Virus record (IMG/VR): IMGVR_UViG_3300031707_001164
Span: 1 to 22,868 of that record
Length of the DNA: 22,868 bases
Source: a virus
Strand: one strand, 5' to 3'
Below, one piece after another: positions 1 through 16,431 of the stretch. A model generated the notes under the pieces. It ran no database searches, was not told where the DNA came from, and saw nothing but the letters and a program-made list of their open reading frames with translations. Every line of letters begins with the position of its first letter. Within the stretch, counting starts at the first letter, position 1. The position numbers were made by a program, and so were the translations under genes.

Positions 1-105
1 TTCGAGTTTGATACCACGACTCGGGCGGGACCGGCAATTTCTCCGATGCCTCGTGGTGAAACGCAGATGATTGAACTGGAATTTGAGGGAGTTGAAAATG
101 CGTAG
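1..105 (+). CDS. C-terminal end of an unknown, probably structural, protein
   Basis: Frame 1 is open from the window edge to a TAG stop at 103-105 and encodes the last 34 residues, ending in ETQMIELEFEGVENA. The stop overlaps the start of the next gene: the ATG at 98-100 lies inside its last codons, giving an 8-nt overlap that suggests co-translation. I do not recognise the family from this fragment. Its place directly upstream of the tail-hub-like gene makes a tail component likely, but that is inference from position only. Confidence 0.6.
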   Translation, partial: FEFDTTTRAGPAISPMPRGETQMIELEFEGVENA

Positions 106-3004
106 CATATCAGTAGCCGGGCTGGCAAAATTGGCGACTCGGTACGGCAATGAACCCATTACCATCATCGAAGTCGATTGGGTGACGGGGCGTGCGCGTT
201 CGTATGCTGACCGCGATGTGAGCGGAATCCCTGGGAGGATCGTTGATCTTGGCGACCTTGACAATGTTGTTGGAGTGTCCAACAACAATTCTTCCCAGTC
301 CCTTGACGTAACCCTAGACGATACGGATGGCACCATTAAAACCATCTTTGATGGACACGACGTACATAAGCGCGATGTTCGTGTTTACCAATGGTTCGAG
401 GGTCTTGCCCTCACGGATAAGTTTCTGCTTTTCTCGGGTAAGGTTAGTTCTCCAATTACTTGGAATGAACGCGACCGTACAGTGAAGTTCACGATCATCT
501 CGCAACTTGAGGATAAGGAGATTGGTTTCTCGGCTGAGGAAGGTCAGTTTCCGTATTTGCCTGCTGAGATGGTTGGCAAGGCGTGGCCGATGATCTTTGG
601 GACCGTGCAAGATAGTCCAGCTTTGCAAGTGAACCACGCGGTAACAGGAACTACTTTGACGCCCGTAGGGATCGTTGCAGGACAGTCTCACTACAATTCA
701 CAACCGTTATTGGGGAACGGTGGCAATTCCGATTCGGGTGCCTATAAGCAATTGGCGCAGATTGCGGCCCAGTCTAACGTTCTTTGGTGTGCTAAGGCTT
801 GCTGGGATGCAGCGGGAGATGGTGTTAAGGCTGCGGACTATCTTGACCAGATCAATAAGTTGGAAGAACAACGTTTCAAGACAAGCGAGCAAATGGCAAG
901 ACAAGCTGCTTGTGCGCAGTGGAGTCGTGGTCAACAACTGGCAACTGCGAGTGCGCATGGTCTCGGTACAAATCCAATTAACATCTTAGGGGGTGAAGAC
1001 TTCCCTCAGAATCAAACTGTTGTTCTTGACATCAATGGTGGTTTGTTTACTGGACATTTTATGGGGGCGTATTTCTACATTGAATCCCGCACCAATCCTG
1101 ATCTTGAACAGACGGCTGCGAATGAGGCAGCCGACCGGAATGATGCGTGTCCGTATGAGGAACCGTCGTCTGCGGAAGCAACAGAATACGACTATCGAGT
1201 TGAAGTTCCGTGCAGTTGTATATGGGCCAATTTTGGAACGTGTGAGTGTCGTCGGTATGGATTCATCATAACAACGGCCAGCAATAAGCATAATCAACAA
1301 ACAACCGACCCTATCCTACAGCAGTTTTGGGCCGAAGCTGGGGCGACTGTCAAATTGAATAGTGCCGAACCTGTGACATACATTGTGTCGATTATTCCTG
1401 GCACGGTCTTGGCTGTGAAGGCGTACAAGCAGTTTACGGGCGAGCGGCGTCTGGTTGATGTGCCAACGAGTCTTTACACGGTGAGATCAGTGGTGTATGG
1501 TACAGTGACGGCAGTGCAAATTGTATTCAATAAACCATTGAGTACAATCGCTGACCAAGGATGGAGTGATGACATCTATGTCACATTTCATTCTACGATT
1601 GGTCCAAACATTGTGGACATCCTCAAGCATTTGGTTGACACGTACACGGATTTGGATTGGGATGCAACAACGTTTAATGCTACACGGACGAAGTTGGTTA
1701 AGTTCCCGGCTAACTTTCCGATTTTGGATCGCAAGAATACACTCACTGTGTTACAAGAGATCGCCTTCCAAGCGCGGTGCGCCTTGTGGATCAGCAACGG
1801 TAAGTTTTACATCAAGTATCTGCCGGAAGTTCCAACGATCAATGATACCGTCAGTGTGAGTGACGTGGACGCAGAGAAAGGTGTCGAAGTAGACTTAACG
1901 CCGACCGAAGACCTTGTGACGAAAATGATTGTCAAGTGGCGGGTAAGTTGGGCACCTGGGCAGACTGACCGTGAGAAGGACAAGTCTGAGAAGACCATTA
2001 TCCTTCGGCACAATATCAAACGGTACGGGACACAGGAAGAAGAGTATGACTTCTACATCTACAATCAACCTGACATCGTGCTCAAGTGTGCGACGTTTTG
2101 GTTGATTCGTAAGTCACACACTTGGAAGCGACTCAAGTTCAAGACGTTCTTGAACAAATTGAACTTGGAGACATTTGATTGTGTGAACCTTGATTTTGCC
2201 GGTGGTTATGTGGCAACTGGGGCGGTTAAGGCGGTTGTAAATAAGGCATCATACAATTCAACTGACAACACAGTAGACTTTGAGTGTACAGTGCCAGTGC
2301 GAGCGGGGACCATGACAACGTTTGACTTTTACTGGCCTGCTGCCCTGCCTGTATCGCGGACATGGCCGCCTTCCGAGGATATTGTCAGTGGTGATGCCGG
2401 AGGCGGTGGACTTGGCGCGGGTGCGACTGGAAATTTGCCAATTGGGGACACGACCGGCATTGAAACTGGGGATACTGTATTTGTGGGTGGGCCAAATGTG
2501 GTCTTCCGGGGACAAAGTGACCGAGGAGACCGGCATCCAACGGATGTTGGTTTTACAGCCCAGACTATTATCAATTTGAGCGTCTATGGTGAGTTGGACA
2601 CGACACCCCGACCACACTTGAATCTACGGATGTACGTGGGACGCTTATTGCAACTTGATCCACTTAAACAACTCAAAGGTGCGATCAGCATTGACATTAG
2701 TGAGACGAAGGTATTTGATTCCAAGGGGGATGATCCATCGAAACACTCACATCTATCGACACTGCTTCATGGCATCAGTGAAGACGGTGATCTTGTCGTG
2801 AAAGAAGGCATGTTAATTGGCAACGACGATAACCCGGATGGCACGCCACTGACGGATGCGTTGAAGATCGGTGAGAGCGGGTATCTTTGTTTAATGGCTG
2901 ACGTGTGGATCACAGAAGGTGACGGGGAGGAAACTAACTTCGACTTCAAGTATGATTCTGACGGCGAAGTTTATGGTGCAGGGACGGCTTTCTTGCAAGA
3001 CTAA
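98..3004 (+). CDS. tail tip / baseplate hub-like structural protein
   Basis: This 968-aa protein is probably a phage tail tip or hub protein. The frame is open from a TTG at 71, but the ATG at 98 has a good ribosome binding site (GAGGGAG at 85-91) and is preferred. The N-terminal part (about 20-200) is beta-rich and includes a MIFGTVQDSPALQ stretch. The middle (about 530-770) has strings such as VLQEIAFQARCALWISNG followed by a long beta-rich segment, an organisation I associate with tail hub/tip attachment proteins. A cysteine cluster (CSC...CEC, about residues 370-385) interrupts the fold. A glycine-rich linker near residue 767 leads to a C-terminal domain of about 190 residues, perhaps an exposed receptor-facing domain. 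The family call rests on overall look and size, with no catalytic motif. It is followed by a small gene and a hairpin, so it ends a rightward transcription unit. Confidence 0.6.
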   Translation: MRSISVAGLAKLATRYGNEPITIIEVDWVTGRARSYADRDVSGIPGRIVDLGDLDNVVGVSNNNSSQSLDVTLDDTDGTIKTIFDGHDVHKRDVRVYQWFEGLALTDKFLLFSGKVSSPITWNERDRTVKFTIISQLEDKEIGFSAEEGQFPYLPAEMVGKAWPMIFGTVQDSPALQVNHAVTGTTLTPVGIVAGQSHYNSQPLLGNGGNSDSGAYKQLAQIAAQSNVLWCAKACWDAAGDGVKAADYLDQINKLEEQRFKTSEQMARQAACAQWSRGQQLATASAHGLGTNPINILGGEDFPQNQTVVLDINGGLFTGHFMGAYFYIESRTNPDLEQTAANEAADRNDACPYEEPSSAEATEYDYRVEVPCSCIWANFGTCECRRYGFIITTASNKHNQQTTDPILQQFWAEAGATVKLNSAEPVTYIVSIIPGTVLAVKAYKQFTGERRLVDVPTSLYTVRSVVYGTVTAVQIVFNKPLSTIADQGWSDDIYVTFHSTIGPNIVDILKHLVDTYTDLDWDATTFNATRTKLVKFPANFPILDRKNTLTVLQEIAFQARCALWISNGKFYIKYLPEVPTINDTVSVSDVDAEKGVEVDLTPTEDLVTKMIVKWRVSWAPGQTDREKDKSEKTIILRHNIKRYGTQEEEYDFYIYNQPDIVLKCATFWLIRKSHTWKRLKFKTFLNKLNLETFDCVNLDFAGGYVATGAVKAVVNKASYNSTDNTVDFECTVPVRAGTMTTFDFYWPAALPVSRTWPPSEDIVSGDAGGGGLGAGATGNLPIGDTTGIETGDTVFVGGPNVVFRGQSDRGDRHPTDVGFTAQTIINLSVYGELDTTPRPHLNLRMYVGRLLQLDPLKQLKGAISIDISETKVFDSKGDDPSKHSHLSTLLHGISEDGDLVVKEGMLIGNDDNPDGTPLTDALKIGESGYLCLMADVWITEGDGEETNFDFKYDSDGEVYGAGTAFLQD

Positions 3005-11155: not shown

Positions 11156-11890
11156 ATGTCCGACAACGCTTTGGTTCCTGTCAACCTGAATCAACTTCCG
11201 TCCACCCAGATCGGCACCGACGACCAGTTCGCGGAACTGGCGAAGGGTGGCGACTATATTGGCCGGATGCAACTGTTCACCAAGGGTAAGGCCATCAACA
11301 AGGAATTGATCCGGCCCGGCCACTATGGCATCCCGGAATCCGACGAGGAAGTCTACGACCTGGGAGTGACGGTGAACATTCTTCCATTGGCCCGCCGACC
11401 CAAGGCCATCGACATGACGGACCTGGAAGCACTCGTCATCGTGTACGACATGGAGACGCCGGAGTTCAAGCGGATTGCGGCCAAATCGGTTGAGGCGGAA
11501 TCACACTGCCAGTTTGGTCCGTCCTTCTTGGTCTACGAGCAATCCACTCGTCGCTTCTTGGAGTTCTTCTGCGGCACGAAGACCAACCGCATTGAAGCCA
11601 AGAAGATTTACCCCTTCCTTCCGCTATCCGAAGGCGACATTCGGCGTCTGGCCGAAGCCGGGACGGATGTGACTGGCCTGGAACCGCACGGCCCGATTCC
11701 CTTGACGCTCAAGGTGAAGTTGGCTGAGAACCGCAAAGGTTCGTGGCACGCTCCGGTTGTCGTGATGTGCAGCACGCCCTTTGTGGCACTGCCGTCTGAG
11801 GAAGTCTTCGTCAAGGAAATCATGCGGTTCTTGACGATTCGTGATAACGGTGTCGAGAAGGTCGAAGAGAAGACCACTCGCGCCCGGTAA
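11156..11890 (+). CDS. conserved-looking phage protein of unknown function
   Basis: The 244-aa product starts MSDNALVPVNLNQLP with GAGG 8 nt upstream. The leader before it holds five CAA triplets (11129-11143), which would be unstructured. Motifs include GDYIGRMQLFTKGKAINKE near 32-50, RPGHYGIPESDEE (53-65), FGPSFLVYEQSTRRFLEFFCGT (119-140) and GLEPHGPIPLT (174-184). I associate this layout with conserved phage proteins found near replication and ssDNA-handling genes, but cannot name the family or a function. No membrane segment or signal peptide. It ends just before a strong hairpin. Confidence 0.7.
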   Translation: MSDNALVPVNLNQLPSTQIGTDDQFAELAKGGDYIGRMQLFTKGKAINKELIRPGHYGIPESDEEVYDLGVTVNILPLARRPKAIDMTDLEALVIVYDMETPEFKRIAAKSVEAESHCQFGPSFLVYEQSTRRFLEFFCGTKTNRIEAKKIYPFLPLSEGDIRRLAEAGTDVTGLEPHGPIPLTLKVKLAENRKGSWHAPVVVMCSTPFVALPSEEVFVKEIMRFLTIRDNGVEKVEEKTTRAR

Positions 11891-11898
11891 ACATCAAT

Positions 11899-11933
11899 TA
11901 GCCGAGGGCGGCGACGGCGACCGCCCTCGGCTA
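11899..11933 (+). terminator. strong GC-rich hairpin between two genes
   Basis: A 13-bp stem (tagccgagggcgg / ccgccctcggcta) with a 9-nt loop lies 8 nt after the stop of the 244-aa protein gene and is followed by TCTTTC. It may be an intrinsic terminator or an mRNA-stabilising or attenuating hairpin. The weak T-run and the closely following gene (21 nt) make partial readthrough likely. Confidence 0.6.
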
Positions 11934-11954
11934 TCTTTCAGAAAGGTATTGACT

Positions 11955-12287
11955 ATGACTCAACAAATCGTGTTCGAGGGCGACGTGAAGTTGGAATACT
12001 CGGCGGGTGATACCGACCGGGAAATCATCATCACGGAACCACCCACTCCTGAAACCATGACTGCGGATGTGGTGACAGGCGGCTACCAACCGGAAGCCTT
12101 GGCTAACTACATTGCGCGGCAATTGGGTTTTCCAAGCAATGCTGAGTTCGACGAGATGTTGCAAAAGATACGAGCGCAACAGGCGTCGGGTACATATAAC
12201 TGTGAGGAACGGGACGCCACACGCGAAGGTGTCCGGCTTCGGGTCACGGTTGAAGTGCTCAATCCCGGCATCGGGATTCAGCAGTAG
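11955..12287 (+). CDS. hypothetical 110-aa protein
   Basis: The start at ATG 11955 has AAAGG 8 nt upstream and lies after the hairpin; the frame is open further upstream but would cross the hairpin and the previous gene. The product starts MTQQIVFEGDVKLEY, has beta-like N- and C-terminal stretches (RLRVTVEVLNPG near the end) and a central helical part around residues 44-70. I do not recognise it. It is the last gene before a non-coding stretch and the tmRNA. Confidence 0.6.
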   Translation: MTQQIVFEGDVKLEYSAGDTDREIIITEPPTPETMTADVVTGGYQPEALANYIARQLGFPSNAEFDEMLQKIRAQQASGTYNCEERDATREGVRLRVTVEVLNPGIGIQQ

Positions 12288-12393
12288 AAACGATCTTGCC
12301 GCTCGGCTATCGGCCTGACCGTGGGGAACTGAACTAGGTGTGCCACGGCCTCAACCAGACTGTTGGTGAAGGGGAGTTCAGTGAGCGGACTTT
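12288..12393 (+). other. non-coding leader with possible pseudoknot upstream of tmRNA
   Basis: No gene is seen here. Two interleaved pairings are possible: ccgtgg 12319-12324 with ccacgg 12343-12348, and actgaact 12328-12335 with agttcagt 12375-12382. The second pair starts inside the loop of the first, which is the layout of an H-type pseudoknot. It may be part of a precursor RNA or an mRNA 3' structure. Short helices like these can arise by chance. Confidence 0.35.
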
Positions 12394-12632
12394 GGGGACG
12401 AATTGGATTCGATCAGACGGATGATGTGTTTGGTTGCGTGTCGTGGTTGATCGGTGGGCCACGTTAAAAGCCGATTAAAACCTTAATTGCCAAACCGCAA
12501 TTTGCTATGGCAGCCTAGCGACTGACTGCTTGTTTGTTTCGAGTTTGTGTTGAGTTCGAGTTTCGATTACACACGTAGACACCGGCATAGAAACGTCCTG
12601 ACACGAGGGTTCGATTCCCTCCGTCTCCACTA
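12394..12632 (+). ncRNA. ssrA: compact transfer-messenger RNA (tmRNA)
   Basis: tmRNA rescues stalled ribosomes and tags the unfinished peptide for proteolysis. The 5' end GGGGACG (12394-12400) pairs with CGTCTCC (12622-12628), with the G3-U70 wobble that alanyl-tRNA synthetase reads. A TGGATTCGA D-like segment follows. The T arm is GAGGG-ttcgatt-CCCTC at 12605-12621. Helix P2 pairs 12413-12419 with 12594-12601 (one bulge). Pseudoknot PK1 is clear: CGTGG 12442-12446 with CCACG 12459-12463, and ATCGG 12450-12454 with CCGAT 12471-12475 (extendable). The tag frame follows, with its stop in a GCAG/CTGC hairpin loop as in E. coli. Only about 75 nt lie between the tag stop and P2, so the usual PK2-PK4 are absent or reduced. 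The 3' end is ACTA, so CCA is not encoded. No SmpB gene is in the window. Confidence 0.9.
12489..12518 (+). other. tmRNA tag-peptide reading frame
   Basis: From a GCC resume codon at 12489 the frame reads AKPQFAMAA and ends in TAG at 12516-12518. The AMAA end matches the Ala-Ala terminus that ClpXP and related proteases recognise (usually ALAA or AVAA). The resume codon is placed by analogy: it is an Ala codon 13 nt after PK1. Other frames give no AA-stop ending. Confidence 0.75.
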
Positions 12633-12660
12633 ATCACAAGGAAACCAAAAGGAAACTACC

Positions 12661-14331
12661 ATGCGTTTTCATCTCTTCGGATTGGCGAATATCCCGACAT
12701 GCAAGGCGAATACGTATGAACCAATGACACCATTGATTTGGAACATGGCGAAGATGCTCAAGGATAATGGGCATCATGTGACGTTTTACGGAGCCGAAGG
12801 AAGCGATGCTCCGTGCGACGAGATGGTCGTCATTGTTCCTAAACATCTTTTGCCTGATGGTTTGGTGATGGGAAGTCATGGAGTTCCGGCGGCAGCATGG
12901 AAGAACGATGGGGCAAGTGCCACTTGGCAAACGTTTATAGCGTTAGGACGCATGGCACTGCGCCGACGTTATCGGACGGGCGACATCTCGCTTATCAGTT
13001 TCGGACGGTATCAAAAGTTCGTCGCTGACGTGTCAACGCTGGCTTGTGAGTTTATCGTCGGATATTCCGGCATTTTCAGTTATCATAAGGTGTTCCCATC
13101 CTATGCGTGGATGCACTACCTTTATGGTGAGTTGAAAATGGAGCGAAACCCGAATTGGATTGATGCTGTCATTCCACACTACCTGGATTTGGATGACTTC
13201 CAAGTGCAGGAAAAGAAGGGTGACTATCTACTTTGTCTCGGGAGGTTGGATCGAGACAAGGGCACCGATATTGCGATTGACATTGCCAATCGGAGTGGAT
13301 CAAAAATCATCGTGGCAGGCGTTGATATGGTAACTCACGACGTTCCTGATTGGCTCAAACAACTGCCCGGTAACGTTGAGTTTACAGGGTACGTGAACTT
13401 GGAACAGCGTCTCGAATTGTTGCGGGGGGCGAAAGCACTTTTGCATCCATGCCGTTGGTTGGAACCCTTTGGCATGGTTCTCATTGAAGCCTTGGCGTGT
13501 GGGACGCCGATCATTGCAAGCGACTGGGGTGCGTTACCTGAGATCATTCAACAGGGAGTGACAGGATTTTGTTGTCGTGACATGGAAGAGTTCGTGAGTG
13601 CTGTGAATAGTATAAAATGGATTGACCCTCTTGACTGTCGCCGTGCTGTGGAAGAACGTCACAGTCTACCTGTCGCATATCAGCAATACATGCGTTACTT
13701 TAGGCGACTCGAAAAGTTGCTTGGTGGCGGATGGTATGAAACTCGCGGGTTGTGGCGTGGGCCGGATGTCGTTGAGCGTGTGAAGTCCTTACAACATGAC
13801 GGCATGTTGAAGGGTGTAGAAATCGGTGTTGACCGTGGGGCACTTTCAGGTTACTTACTGACTGAATTGCCGACCTTACAACTTGGCATGGTTGATACCT
13901 GGGGTGTCTTTGCGGAAGATTCCTCGTATGCTAAATCAGGGGACGGCATCGTTGCCCGTACACAGGAACAACGTGAAGAAGACTTGGCGGAAGCGTTGCG
14001 CGTGACAGACCACGCACGGGATCGTCGCCAAATTCTGCGAATGACTTCGGAAGAAGCAACACGGATGTTCGCACCTTGGGAATCTGCCGTTGAAGAAGGT
14101 TCACTTGATTTCGTTTTTCTCGATGCAGACCATTCATACGCAGGCATTGCTGCCGACATACAATTGTGGGCACCAAAAGTGCGAAGCGGCGGTCTGTTGT
14201 GCGGCCACGACTACGGCATGGAAGTGTTTTATCCGCAGTGGGGTGTGACACGGGCTGTGGACGAATATGCCGCCAAGATTGGTCAGACTGTACAACGAGG
14301 CGCAGATTGGACTTGGTTCATTCAAGTATAA
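12661..14331 (+). CDS. GT4 glycosyltransferase fused to SAM-dependent methyltransferase
   Basis: The 556-aa product has two enzymes in one chain. Residues about 1-350 are a GT-B, GT4-family glycosyltransferase: an N-terminal Rossmann half, then LLCLGRLDRDKGTDIAI (190-206), VEFTGYV (239-245) and the EX7E motif with E268 and E276 in EPFGMVLIEALACGTPII. Residues about 385-540 are a class I methyltransferase: GVEIGVDRG (386-393) as the SAM-binding glycine motif, MVDTWG (410-415) and LDFVFLDADHSY (482-493), resembling the Methyltransf_24 type. AAGGA lies about 8 nt before the ATG. It may modify sugars on phage DNA, virion proteins or host surface. Which acceptor is used is unknown. It lies 28 nt after the tmRNA and 1 nt before the next gene. 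Confidence 0.85.
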   Translation: MRFHLFGLANIPTCKANTYEPMTPLIWNMAKMLKDNGHHVTFYGAEGSDAPCDEMVVIVPKHLLPDGLVMGSHGVPAAAWKNDGASATWQTFIALGRMALRRRYRTGDISLISFGRYQKFVADVSTLACEFIVGYSGIFSYHKVFPSYAWMHYLYGELKMERNPNWIDAVIPHYLDLDDFQVQEKKGDYLLCLGRLDRDKGTDIAIDIANRSGSKIIVAGVDMVTHDVPDWLKQLPGNVEFTGYVNLEQRLELLRGAKALLHPCRWLEPFGMVLIEALACGTPIIASDWGALPEIIQQGVTGFCCRDMEEFVSAVNSIKWIDPLDCRRAVEERHSLPVAYQQYMRYFRRLEKLLGGGWYETRGLWRGPDVVERVKSLQHDGMLKGVEIGVDRGALSGYLLTELPTLQLGMVDTWGVFAEDSSYAKSGDGIVARTQEQREEDLAEALRVTDHARDRRQILRMTSEEATRMFAPWESAVEEGSLDFVFLDADHSYAGIAADIQLWAPKVRSGGLLCGHDYGMEVFYPQWGVTRAVDEYAAKIGQTVQRGADWTWFIQV

Positions 14332-14332
14332 C

Positions 14333-14851
14333 ATGCTTCCAGCCGTCATCATTATTCAACGTCCGACCGTGGATATGGCAGCCTTCATCGGCATCAGCCA
14401 CAAGGTTCTTGGTCGCAGTCCGGCTGCCGCCATTGATGCGTGCCCGCGCAAGATGTCGGAAGCGGAACGTTTCCTAAGCTGCCTTGCGGCTTTGCGCGAT
14501 CCCGAGGCTCGGGCGGGGTTGCAACCGAACTTGTTAGCGCATACAACATTCAGTTTGTTTATGGTTGCGGATGAGCGCGACCTACTCGACATCATTGAGT
14601 GCGCCGCCGGGATGCCAGTCGTTTTCACAGAGACACTGGGGCGAGGCGTCATGGCCGCCGTATTCACGGGGACATTGAATCAGTGGCGGGATGCCGTCAA
14701 GGCAGGATCAAATCCCGATGCTGAACATACGATTCGCCATTGCTTCAATCAGATTTACGGTCTGTTTTACAACGAAGGATTGAACGTATGGAGCGAGTTT
14801 AAGCAACGTCCTGGACCGGAACAAACATTTTACCTAGAAGATAAGAGATGA
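14333..14851 (+). CDS. ThyX-like fold protein lacking the ThyX signature (tentative)
   Basis: The 172-aa product starts at ATG 14333, 1 nt after the preceding stop; its own stop overlaps the next gene as ATGA. Two segments line up by eye with flavin-dependent thymidylate synthase ThyX: ERFLSCLAALRDPE...AHTTFSLFMVADERDLLDII (about 45-87) with the ThyX segment around 'H..fEh..f.f', and VFTGTLNQWRDAVKAG...AEHTIRHC (about 110-138) with the ThyX C-terminal 'W..fl.lR...hAq.EIr' segment. The diagnostic RHRxxSxNExSxRY motif and roughly 60 residues around it are absent. If related, it is not a normal ThyX. It could be a pseudoenzyme, an altered nucleotide enzyme, or unrelated. Confidence 0.4.
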   Translation: MLPAVIIIQRPTVDMAAFIGISHKVLGRSPAAAIDACPRKMSEAERFLSCLAALRDPEARAGLQPNLLAHTTFSLFMVADERDLLDIIECAAGMPVVFTETLGRGVMAAVFTGTLNQWRDAVKAGSNPDAEHTIRHCFNQIYGLFYNEGLNVWSEFKQRPGPEQTFYLEDKR

Positions 14852-16431
14852 AAGACATCACGTTGTATCAAGGTGATTGCCGGGATGTTCTTGCTACGTT
14901 GCCTGAGTCATGCGTGGATTATGTAGTTACGGACCCGCCCTACGGGATAAATTTCATGGGAGAAGGTTGGGATCATGTGGTTCCAGGACCGGAGTATTGG
15001 CGGGCAATCTTGCGTGTCTGCAAACCTGGTGCGTTACTCTTGGCGTTCGGTGGCACACGAACCTATCATCGGCTGACTTGTGCGATTGAAGATGCGGGGT
15101 GGGAGATTCGAGACACCTTAATGTGGCTTTATGGGCAGGGGATGCCAAAGTGTGGTGACATCGGAAAGATGATCGACAAGTCAAAGGGAGCCAAACGCGA
15201 GATTATAGGCACCAAGTTAGGTCAACCTGGTTATTCGCTCGCCAATAATGGCCGCACGAACGAAGTCTATGGCGACCTACATAATCCCGAGGCTGAGTGC
15301 GCTATCACGGCCCCGGCCACACCCGAGGCAGCAAAGTGGACTGGTTGGGCTATGGCCCTGAAACCGGCTTGGGAACCAATCGTCCTGGCGATGAAACCGA
15401 TGGACGGGACGATTGCTCACAATGCTTTGACTTGGGACGTGGCGGGGATGAACATTGAAGCCAGTCGGGTTGGCACCGAGAGTACCGTGCGCACGCGCGG
15501 GGACAGTTTGACCGTGGCTGGTTGGGCGAGTACGAAGCGCTCACCCGTAGGCGGGTCCGAGTGCGGCCGGTGGCCTGCGAACGTGTTGTTGGATGAAGAG
15601 GCTGCCGCGCAGTTGGACGAGCAGACTGGGCGGCTTAGTGTCACTGGGAAACGATCCGAGCGGAGTAAGAACGCAGTCGTGGAGGGTACGACTTGGGGTA
15701 TCAACAATCATCTCAGCCGTGAATATCCCAATGATTCTGGCGGGGCAAGTCGATTTTTTTATTGTGCTAAAGCAACAACCAACGAGCGAAATAAAGGTTG
15801 TGAAAAGGTGGTGACATGGGAAGATGTGGACCTAAGCCAAGAGACGGACGAGTTGCTGAAACAGATCAGGGATATATCCGTTATTGGCACACACCGTCTG
15901 GCCGACGCCGCATGGAACACGATGTTGTCTGGGAGCAACATTACGGACCAATCCCGGATGGCTATTGCATCCATCATGTCAATTTTAATAAGATTGACAA
16001 TCGAATTGAGAACCTGCAACTTCTCACCTTCCTCGAACACAAACGCATCCATTCTGGGTGCTACAGAGATGTTGCTGGCGGCTGGATTAAACCTTGTCGC
16101 CGTTGCGGACGACATCGACCGATTGCGGACTTCTACAAGCGGCACGATGGCGTCACTGCTGAGTGCCGTCAGTGCAGCATCGCGCGTGTTGTCGCGGATA
16201 AGCGCAAAAGGAAGGCGCGGCAACACGCACAGCACTGTTAAGCCCCTGACTCTGATGGAGTATTTGTTGGGTTTGCTTTCAACCCCGGATGGGGGACTTA
16301 TCCTGGACCCATTTGCTGGCAGTGGTTCGACACTCGTGGCCGCCCGGCGACTAGGTCGCAGGTGCATCGGGATTGAACTGGACCCCCATAACTACGAGAT
16401 TGCCACCCGAAGGATTCAATGCGAAAGTTGA
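14848..16431 (+). CDS. beta-class DNA methyltransferase carrying a nested HNH gene
   Basis: The 527-aa product is an N6-adenine or N4-cytosine DNA methyltransferase of the beta class, with motif IV TDPPYG near the N-terminus (residues 28-33) and motif I LDPFAGSGST near the C-terminus (486-495). Other family strings are WPANVLLDEEAAAQLDEQ (242-259), SRFFYCAKAT (301-310) and HSTVKPLTLMEYL (461-473). In ordinary members the FFYCAKA block is followed after a modest linker by the HPTVKP block. Here about 140 residues (320-457) with unusual Ala/Ser/Ile/Leu-rich composition separate them, and this stretch encodes an HNH endonuclease in another frame. ATG overlaps the previous stop as ATGA. Probable role: phage DNA self-modification against host restriction. 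Activity may depend on how the insert is tolerated. Confidence 0.85.
   Translation: MKDITLYQGDCRDVLATLPESCVDYVVTDPPYGINFMGEGWDHVVPGPEYWRAILRVCKPGALLLAFGGTRTYHRLTCAIEDAGWEIRDTLMWLYGQGMPKCGDIGKMIDKSKGAKREIIGTKLGQPGYSLANNGRTNEVYGDLHNPEAECAITAPATPEAAKWTGWAMALKPAWEPIVLAMKPMDGTIAHNALTWDVAGMNIEASRVGTESTVRTRGDSLTVAGWASTKRSPVGGSECGRWPANVLLDEEAAAQLDEQTGRLSVTGKRSERSKNAVVEGTTWGINNHLSREYPNDSGGASRFFYCAKATTNERNKGCEKVVTWEDVDLSQETDELLKQIRDISVIGTHRLADAAWNTMLSGSNITDQSRMAIASIMSILIRLTIELRTCNFSPSSNTNASILGATEMLLAAGLNLVAVADDIDRLRTSTSGTMASLLSAVSAASRVLSRISAKGRRGNTHSTVKPLTLMEYLLGLLSTPDGGLILDPFAGSGSTLVAARRLGRRCIGIELDPHNYEIATRRIQCES
15816..16241 (+). CDS. HNH endonuclease nested out of frame in the methyltransferase gene
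   Basis: The 141-aa product contains a clear HNH homing endonuclease core, EHDVVWEQHYGPIPDG at 34-49 and CIHHVNFNKIDNRIENL at 51-67 followed by LEHKRIH to 79, plus a C-terminal zinc-ribbon-like pair C94-x2-C97 and C117-x2-C120. It is read in a frame different from the surrounding methyltransferase, which stays open throughout. AAGG lies 7 nt before the ATG, so it can be translated on its own. Its last residues are encoded by the start of the methyltransferase HSTVKP motif and its TAA stop lies inside the V-K codons. It appears to be a homing gene inserted into the variable linker of the methyltransferase gene. Confidence 0.88.
   Translation: MGRCGPKPRDGRVAETDQGYIRYWHTPSGRRRMEHDVVWEQHYGPIPDGYCIHHVNFNKIDNRIENLQLLTFLEHKRIHSGCYRDVAGGWIKPCRRCGRHRPIADFYKRHDGVTAECRQCSIARVVADKRKRKARQHAQHC

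Follow-up and report, generated by a model that had tools for sequence, protein, structure and literature searches.

The window analysed here is the whole of one IMG/VR record (22,868 bases) and contains phage genes. These encode a primase-like DUF5906 protein, a ParB-like protein, a glycosyltransferase, methyltransferases, a helicase, an exonuclease and HNH endonucleases, and there is a weak match to a tail protein (E 9e-4). Between the genes at 11156-11890 and 14267-14851 lies a tmRNA gene, preceded by a small ORF and followed by the glycosyltransferase gene. ARAGORN calls a one-piece tmRNA at 12394-12630, with the tag AKPQFAMAA*, as the sole RNA gene of the window. RF00023 is likewise the only Rfam family matched in the window at the gathering threshold, at 12394-12632 (model positions 1-374, 95.1 bits against a cut-off of 47, E 3.1e-36). 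The original prediction had placed a compact tmRNA at 12394-12632 and named Infernal with Rfam and ARAGORN as the means of checking it; the two detectors agree across the gene, the coordinates were right, and the window RNA is confirmed as a phage-encoded compact one-piece tmRNA gene.

Two other identities were rejected. A permuted two-piece tmRNA is contradicted by the score of RF04321 at this place, 22.1 bits and thus below its cut-off of 47, against 95.1 bits for the standard gene order, and a molecule confined to the tRNA-like domain, as in mycobacteriophage DS6A, by the open tag frame. A nucleotide search of annotated phages with 12300-12700 returned no match. The tmRNA alone, searched against the same phages at E <= 10, matched 641 records, none spanning 80% of the tmRNA; the 15 matches listed all fall within tmRNA nucleotides 207-239, which are the T arm and the 3' end. 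No sigma-70-like promoter was found at 11850-12750, where shuffled sequences gave a mean of 0.5.

Anatomy of the tmRNA

The features of the gene are collected in Table 1. Pairings were read from the sequence by hand, guided by the RF00023 alignment, and tmRNA numbering is converted to window coordinates by adding 12393. The 7-bp acceptor stem with a G3-U pair and the T arm, both predicted, can be read directly. The G3-U pair is G3-U233, and a G3-U pair is present in all 26 phage tmRNAs compared. The ACTA end indicates that CCA is not encoded. As in the RF00023 alignment, the tRNA-like domain has no anticodon arm, its place being taken by helix 2. A P2 helix had also been claimed, and here the picture is mixed: helices 2a and 2d can be paired by hand, but the middle of helix 2 contains several non-standard pairs in the RF00023 alignment, and when the complete RNA is folded for minimum energy without constraints, by a method in which pseudoknots are not representable, the acceptor and T stems are the only elements kept and helix 2d is lost.

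Table 1. Features of the window tmRNA gene
Feature	Window position	tmRNA nt	Strand	Basis
Whole tmRNA gene (compact, one-piece), 239 nt with the 3' ACTA	12394..12632		+	ARAGORN; RF00023, 95.1 bits
Acceptor stem, 5' strand GGGGACG (G3 pairs with U)	12394..12400	1-7	+	Sequence; 7/7 pairs
Helix 2a, 5' strand TCAGACG, opposite 12594-12601 with a single C bulge	12413..12419	20-26	+	Hand pairing; RF00023 region
Helix 2d, 5' strand GCGTGT, pairs with 12571-12576	12436..12441	43-48	+	Hand pairing; RF00023 alignment
PK1	12442..12478		+	Two-sided changes among 26 phage tmRNAs
PK1 stem 1, CGTGG/CCACG	12442-12446, 12459-12463	49-53/66-70	+	
PK1 stem 2, TTGATCGG/CCGATTAA	12447-12454, 12471-12478	54-61/78-85	+	
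Tag reading frame, GCC to TAG, AKPQFAMAA*	12489..12518		+	ARAGORN; interval measurement
Stop-codon hairpin GGCAG/CTGCT, 5 bp, in the place of helix 5	12509..12530		+	Position only
Leftover stretch of ~40 nt where PK2-PK4 are expected, probably single-stranded	12531..12570		+	Interval of 59 vs 165-181 nt; shuffle folding
Helix 2d, 3' strand ACACGT	12571..12576	178-183	+	Hand pairing; RF00023 alignment
Helix 2a, 3' strand CGTCCTGA	12594..12601	201-208	+	Hand pairing; region per RF00023
T arm GAGGG-TTCGATT-CCCTC, 5-bp stem	12605..12621	212-228	+	RF00023 alignment; pair counts, 5/5
Acceptor stem, 3' strand CGTCTCC	12622..12628	229-235	+	Read from sequence; pair counts
Discriminator A, then CTA	12629	236	+	Read from sequence

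The predicted H-type pseudoknot PK1 is present. Both stems are paired in the window (stem 1 in 5/5 pairs, stem 2 in 6/6 of the counted pairs), and both covary among phage tmRNAs of the same PK1 pattern. Read without the pseudoknot, the PK1 stretch has a folding energy like that of shuffled sequence (z -1.25). The comparison set consists of 26 distinct phage tmRNAs picked by the PK1 pattern; this had 36 matches, and ten without an ARAGORN tmRNA call were left out, among them L295, whose contig is represented by L102, added by hand. The acceptor stem is paired in 182/182 cells of this set and the T stem in 130/130, while PK1 stem 1 is paired in 128/130 and the six pairs of stem 2 in 143/156, the PK1 counts being partly fixed because the sequences were chosen by that pattern. 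Two-sided changes occur in the acceptor stem, the T stem and both stems of PK1, and none of 1000 column shuffles reached the observed pair totals, a control that ignores relatedness. The counts cover these three elements.

The resume codon GCC (nt 96-98) follows UAAUU. The tag occupies nt 96-122 and is closed by UAG at nt 123-125, the frame reading GCC...GCAGCCTAG, so that the short frame ending in Ala-Ala-stop was predicted correctly. Tags resembling it are found on longer phage tmRNAs (AKTELAMAA, ATPMAMAA and AKHSFAMAA), and those of many other members of the PK1-pattern set are quite unlike it. A small hairpin had been proposed at the stop codon. A 5-bp pairing is indeed located there, in the right place for helix 5, but its folding energy is no better than that of shuffles (z -0.06), so it is by position that the hairpin is recognized.

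Four pseudoknots are usual in tmRNA, and the role of PK2-PK4 has been probed through their replacement in E. coli tmRNA. In the window tmRNA the interval between the stop codon, counted from its first base, and the conserved GTA in helix 2d measures 59 nt, against 165-181 nt in six full-length tmRNAs of the PK1 type (L102, L103, L110, L269, L289 and L236). PK2-PK4 therefore do not fit, and the prediction of almost no room for them was accurate. A hairpin replacing them was considered but gained no support: the leftover stretch (12534-12570) folds like shuffled sequence (z 0.34) and is best regarded as single-stranded. PK2-PK4 are usual and non-universal features of tmRNA, and the available part of PMC1168896 lists accepted groups in which one or more are absent.

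Relatives and other compact tmRNAs

Searched with tblastn against annotated phages, the primase-like protein has no match, and the helicase and glycosyltransferase have only matches below 60% identity (119 and 67 records). Relatives of the primase-like protein were collected from 66 viral loci and those of the 11156-11890 protein from 34, together giving 80 contigs. Of these, 70 were searched with RF00023 and five exceed the cut-off. Two of the five are twins of the window (3300032164_000053 and 3300032053_000140), 99.99% identical to it over 19,751 bases and with an identical 239-nt gene; one distinct compact tmRNA sequence is known from the window lineage. The other three carry tmRNAs of 355 nt (G033, tag AKTELAMAA), 346 nt (G062, tag ATPMAMAA) and 385 nt (G050). 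ARAGORN found no tmRNA in the parts examined of the ten remaining contigs, which is weak evidence of absence since the program also misses the G050 gene.

The G033 and G062 genes lie elsewhere in their contigs, outside the slot occupied in the window. The G050 gene, at 1501-1885 on the minus strand of locus L102, scores 128.5 bits with RF00023 and is flanked by homologs of the 11156-11890 protein (29.7% identity) and of the ORF at 14267-14851 (E 5.8e-13 with a profile of 16 sequences that include the window's). It therefore occupies the same slot between homologous genes. The acceptor stems of the two tmRNAs are identical, with an A-U at pair 5 found only in these two of the 26, and nt 35-100 of the window tmRNA are 87% identical to the longer molecule. 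The two differ in the interval from stop codon to GTA, 179 nt in G050 against 59 nt in the window, in the encoded CCA of G050, and in its longer tag, ANNVINADFGQSAKAA, which was read by hand as there is no ARAGORN call. Among 51 distinct intervals at loci with both flanking genes, the window's twin is the only one for which ARAGORN reports a tmRNA; for 47 of the 50 remaining intervals RF00023 was run on the contig as well, without a match in that slot.

The full-length tmRNA in the same slot of a distant relative makes the compact form look like a reduction inside a phage lineage. The pair is read, from sequence comparison, as one gene at one locus, of which the lineage of the window would have the shortened form. 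Growth of a compact ancestor into a longer molecule seems less probable, full length being the general state. The 385-nt homolog in this slot is new; phage tmRNAs as such were already known.

As predicted, the gene is far shorter than is usual in bacteria. In the phylum of genome G071 (inferred to be Pseudomonadota) RF00023 matches 80/120 genomes at E <= 1e-20, and the shortest match is 325 nt apart from that of G071 itself, the centre of the phylum draw, which is 244 nt. In the phylum of a Chloroflexi MAG (G075) there is a match in 113/121 genomes at the same threshold, the shortest being 349 nt. The claim that the reduced form is unusual stands with regard to length, but the window gene is not unique, as compact genes also occur in another phage lineage and in one bacterial MAG. 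The one-piece tmRNAs recognized by ARAGORN, with L102 added by hand, comprise 152 loci and 128 distinct sequences, of which eight are no longer than 253 nt and the next is 279 nt. Most of these loci were recovered with strict sequence patterns, which in three length bins matched 15, 38 and 108 stretches, so the proportion of compact tmRNAs is only a guide. The eight comprise the window's sequence, present at five loci, six sequences from seven loci of a separate phage lineage, and one from a bacterial MAG (L263).

The second compact phage lineage (L113, L115, L118, L120, L122, L125 and L127) is similar in length, 238-253 nt by ARAGORN, with tags of the form ANDNVA(L/I)(S/T)LAA. Its members are likewise one-piece by ARAGORN and score best with RF00023 (98-119 bits); in five of the seven, RF04321 too exceeds its cut-off, but it scores much lower there than RF00023 (55.7-63.6 bits). 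They differ from the window in belonging to another sequence lineage and in having 66-78 nt after the stop codon in the four measured, which by eye could form one further pseudoknot. A search of annotated phages with the L113 gene gave no match. The bacterial gene, at 2273-2516 of L263, is a 244-nt tmRNA in an Ectothiorhodospiraceae MAG, where it is the sole match above the cut-off (153.6 bits). Its ARAGORN tag has 26 residues and does not end in Ala-Ala, and the deletion may have taken the original stop codon.

Not all candidates found by pattern were retained. The 15 matches of the 207-267 nt pattern cannot all be taken as compact tmRNAs, as RF00023 supports only nine (L113, L115, L118, L120, L121, L122, L123, L125 and L127); among these the RF00023 match in L123 is just 137 nt long, and ARAGORN makes no call for L121. 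L114, L116, L117 and L126 are permuted tmRNAs of the cyanobacterial type, and L119 and L124 have tRNA or permuted matches at the place. L263 is the compact tmRNA among five bacterial pattern matches; L264 and L267 have no RF00023 match in the pattern locus, and for L264-L267 ARAGORN calls no tmRNA there, their genomes carrying tmRNAs of 352-399 nt elsewhere. At the other end of the scale, L274, L278, L285, L290, L297 and L298 are phage tmRNAs of 410-412 nt whose ARAGORN tag, at 32 residues, is unusually long (AEQEEADLLAEAEAIFNNPDAFLVQEDALLAA and close variants).

Published lengths run from 230 to 400 nt (PMC3968760, in the part available), and the shortest sequence in an alignment of 2005 is given as 250 nt, partial genes and one frameless mitochondrial gene aside (PMC1168896, likewise in part). 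That tmRNA genes are known in some phages, as the original prediction stated, agrees with the accessible portion of PMC9004378, which reports them in 402 of 18,146 phage genomes. The accessible text of PMC11915505, a database of 2025, counts 79 phage sequences among 97,179 and also lists the DS6A form without a tag, and that of PMC7162821 describes huge phages with tmRNA and SmpB. A coding tmRNA of 239 nt is thus close to the lower limit of published lengths, and tmRNAs in phages have been described before. The 'minimal tmRNA' of PMC2584231 refers, in the excerpt available, to a shortened tag. No compact one-piece coding phage tmRNA was found in the literature searched, which was mostly open-access and excluded preprints.

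Proposed function

The window RNA shares with standard bacterial tmRNA (RF00023) the gene order, the tRNA-like domain with G3-U, helix 2, PK1, the resume codon, a tag ending in Ala-Ala and the stop codon. It differs in being 239 nt long rather than about 350 nt, in having no room for PK2, PK3 and PK4, and in being phage-borne. The permuted two-piece tmRNAs (RF04321 and clade models) also have fewer pseudoknots, but the window gene is not permuted. Quite probably, a tailed phage here encodes a functional, minimal tmRNA of the one-piece type, descended from a full-length phage tmRNA by the loss of PK2-PK4. Of this reading, the gene and its anatomy come from sequence, the reduction from comparison, and the enzymes, activity and benefit in infection from known tmRNA biology.

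In sequence, everything required for charging, resumption and termination is intact, and the most likely action would be ordinary trans-translation with host factors, without the PK2-PK4 ring, which work on E. coli reports to be dispensable for tagging. The RNA would be matured by host RNase P and CCA-adding enzyme, charged by host alanyl-tRNA synthetase via G3-U, and delivered by host SmpB and EF-Tu to ribosomes that have stalled on mRNA that is cut or lacks a stop codon. Once transfer to alanine has taken place, the ribosome would resume at GCC, add AKPQFAMAA, stop at UAG and be recycled, and the tagged protein would pass to host proteases. The part of PMC3968760 available, citing Nameki 2000, states that tagging requires PK1 and not PK2-PK4, and PK1 itself is described there and in the available part of PMC4236655 as replaceable by a hairpin or single strand; the window RNA retains the parts reported as needed. 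The suggested search for smpB elsewhere in the genome was negative: PF01668 was detected in none of 19 viral records, possibly fragments, which include the window and its two twins, and was detected in all ten control genomes, hence host SmpB is presumed.

A shortened RNA might instead bind SmpB or ribosomes and so block host trans-translation rather than tag proteins. The DS6A gene, also a reduced tmRNA of a phage, contains little beyond the tRNA-like domain, and such molecules inhibit tmRNA according to the accessible parts of PMC4131195 and PMC11915505. The tag part is, however, absent in DS6A and present in the window RNA, which keeps PK1, the UAAUU-GCC context, the Ala-Ala tag and the stop codon; a decoy would need none of these, and with the tag part intact this role is unlikely. 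The gene could also be the decaying remnant of a full-length tmRNA, disappearing after the loss of PK2-PK4, in keeping with the scarcity of tmRNA in this phage group (the five of 70 contigs above, two of them twins), with the single compact sequence known in the window lineage and with the poor pairing of mid-helix 2 in the RF00023 alignment. Against this stand the fully paired acceptor, T stem and PK1, the ability of helices 2a and 2d to pair, the tag frame that ARAGORN finds open, and the retention of compact tmRNA by a separate phage lineage in six distinct sequences at seven loci, and we regard decay as quite improbable. Deletion of the middle of a full-length gene by an assembly error, conceivable as a collapse at the short direct repeat TTCGAGTTT that occurs twice in the leftover region, is very improbable given the identical 239-nt gene in 3300032164_000053 and 3300032053_000140, which are possibly from related samples.

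A working minimal tmRNA in the window would mean that some phages trim their tmRNA yet keep the coding part, and together with G050/L102 it offers a matched pair for asking what the PK2-PK4 ring is for. Tentatively, phages might repeatedly strip tmRNA to the smallest tagging molecule (tRNA-like domain, helix 2, PK1, tag and stop), and the window lineage might then be natural proof that a one-piece tmRNA can do without the ring; faster maturation, or freedom from control through S1 or RNase R, may be what the reduced RNA gains in infection.

Other elements at the locus

The slot between the 11156 and 14267 homologs holds other small genes in some relatives. In L077 (5787-5859), L085 (2299-2370), L086 (5840-5907) and L023 (7463-7536) these are tRNA-Arg(CCG) or degenerate tRNA-like genes, and downstream of the 11156 homolog in L072 and L087 there is what looks, by eye, like a tRNA with an insert of about 100 nt.

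A conserved intergenic element is located at 12299-12388 of the window and ends 5 nt before the tmRNA. By eye it has an outer stem CCGCTC/GAGCGG, and it contains a pseudoknot formed by CCGTGG/CCACGG with ACTGAACT/AGTTCAGT. Many relatives have it too, again between their 11156 and 14267 homologs and often, by eye, directly upstream of a start codon (e.g. L070 near 5842, L096 near 5816, L333 near 598 and L326 near 5656); the copies are mostly close, with a few divergent ones that show two-sided changes. No Rfam family scores above its cut-off there, with RF04321 and sR52 appearing only below threshold. It may be a structured RNA not yet described, perhaps with a cis-regulatory role. Further downstream, a DNA methyltransferase ORF at 14848-16431 is conserved at about residues 1-173 and, after a long intervening stretch, at about 443-524, and is overlapped in another frame, at about residues 323-464, by an HNH endonuclease ORF (15816-16241), an arrangement that might represent a homing insertion.
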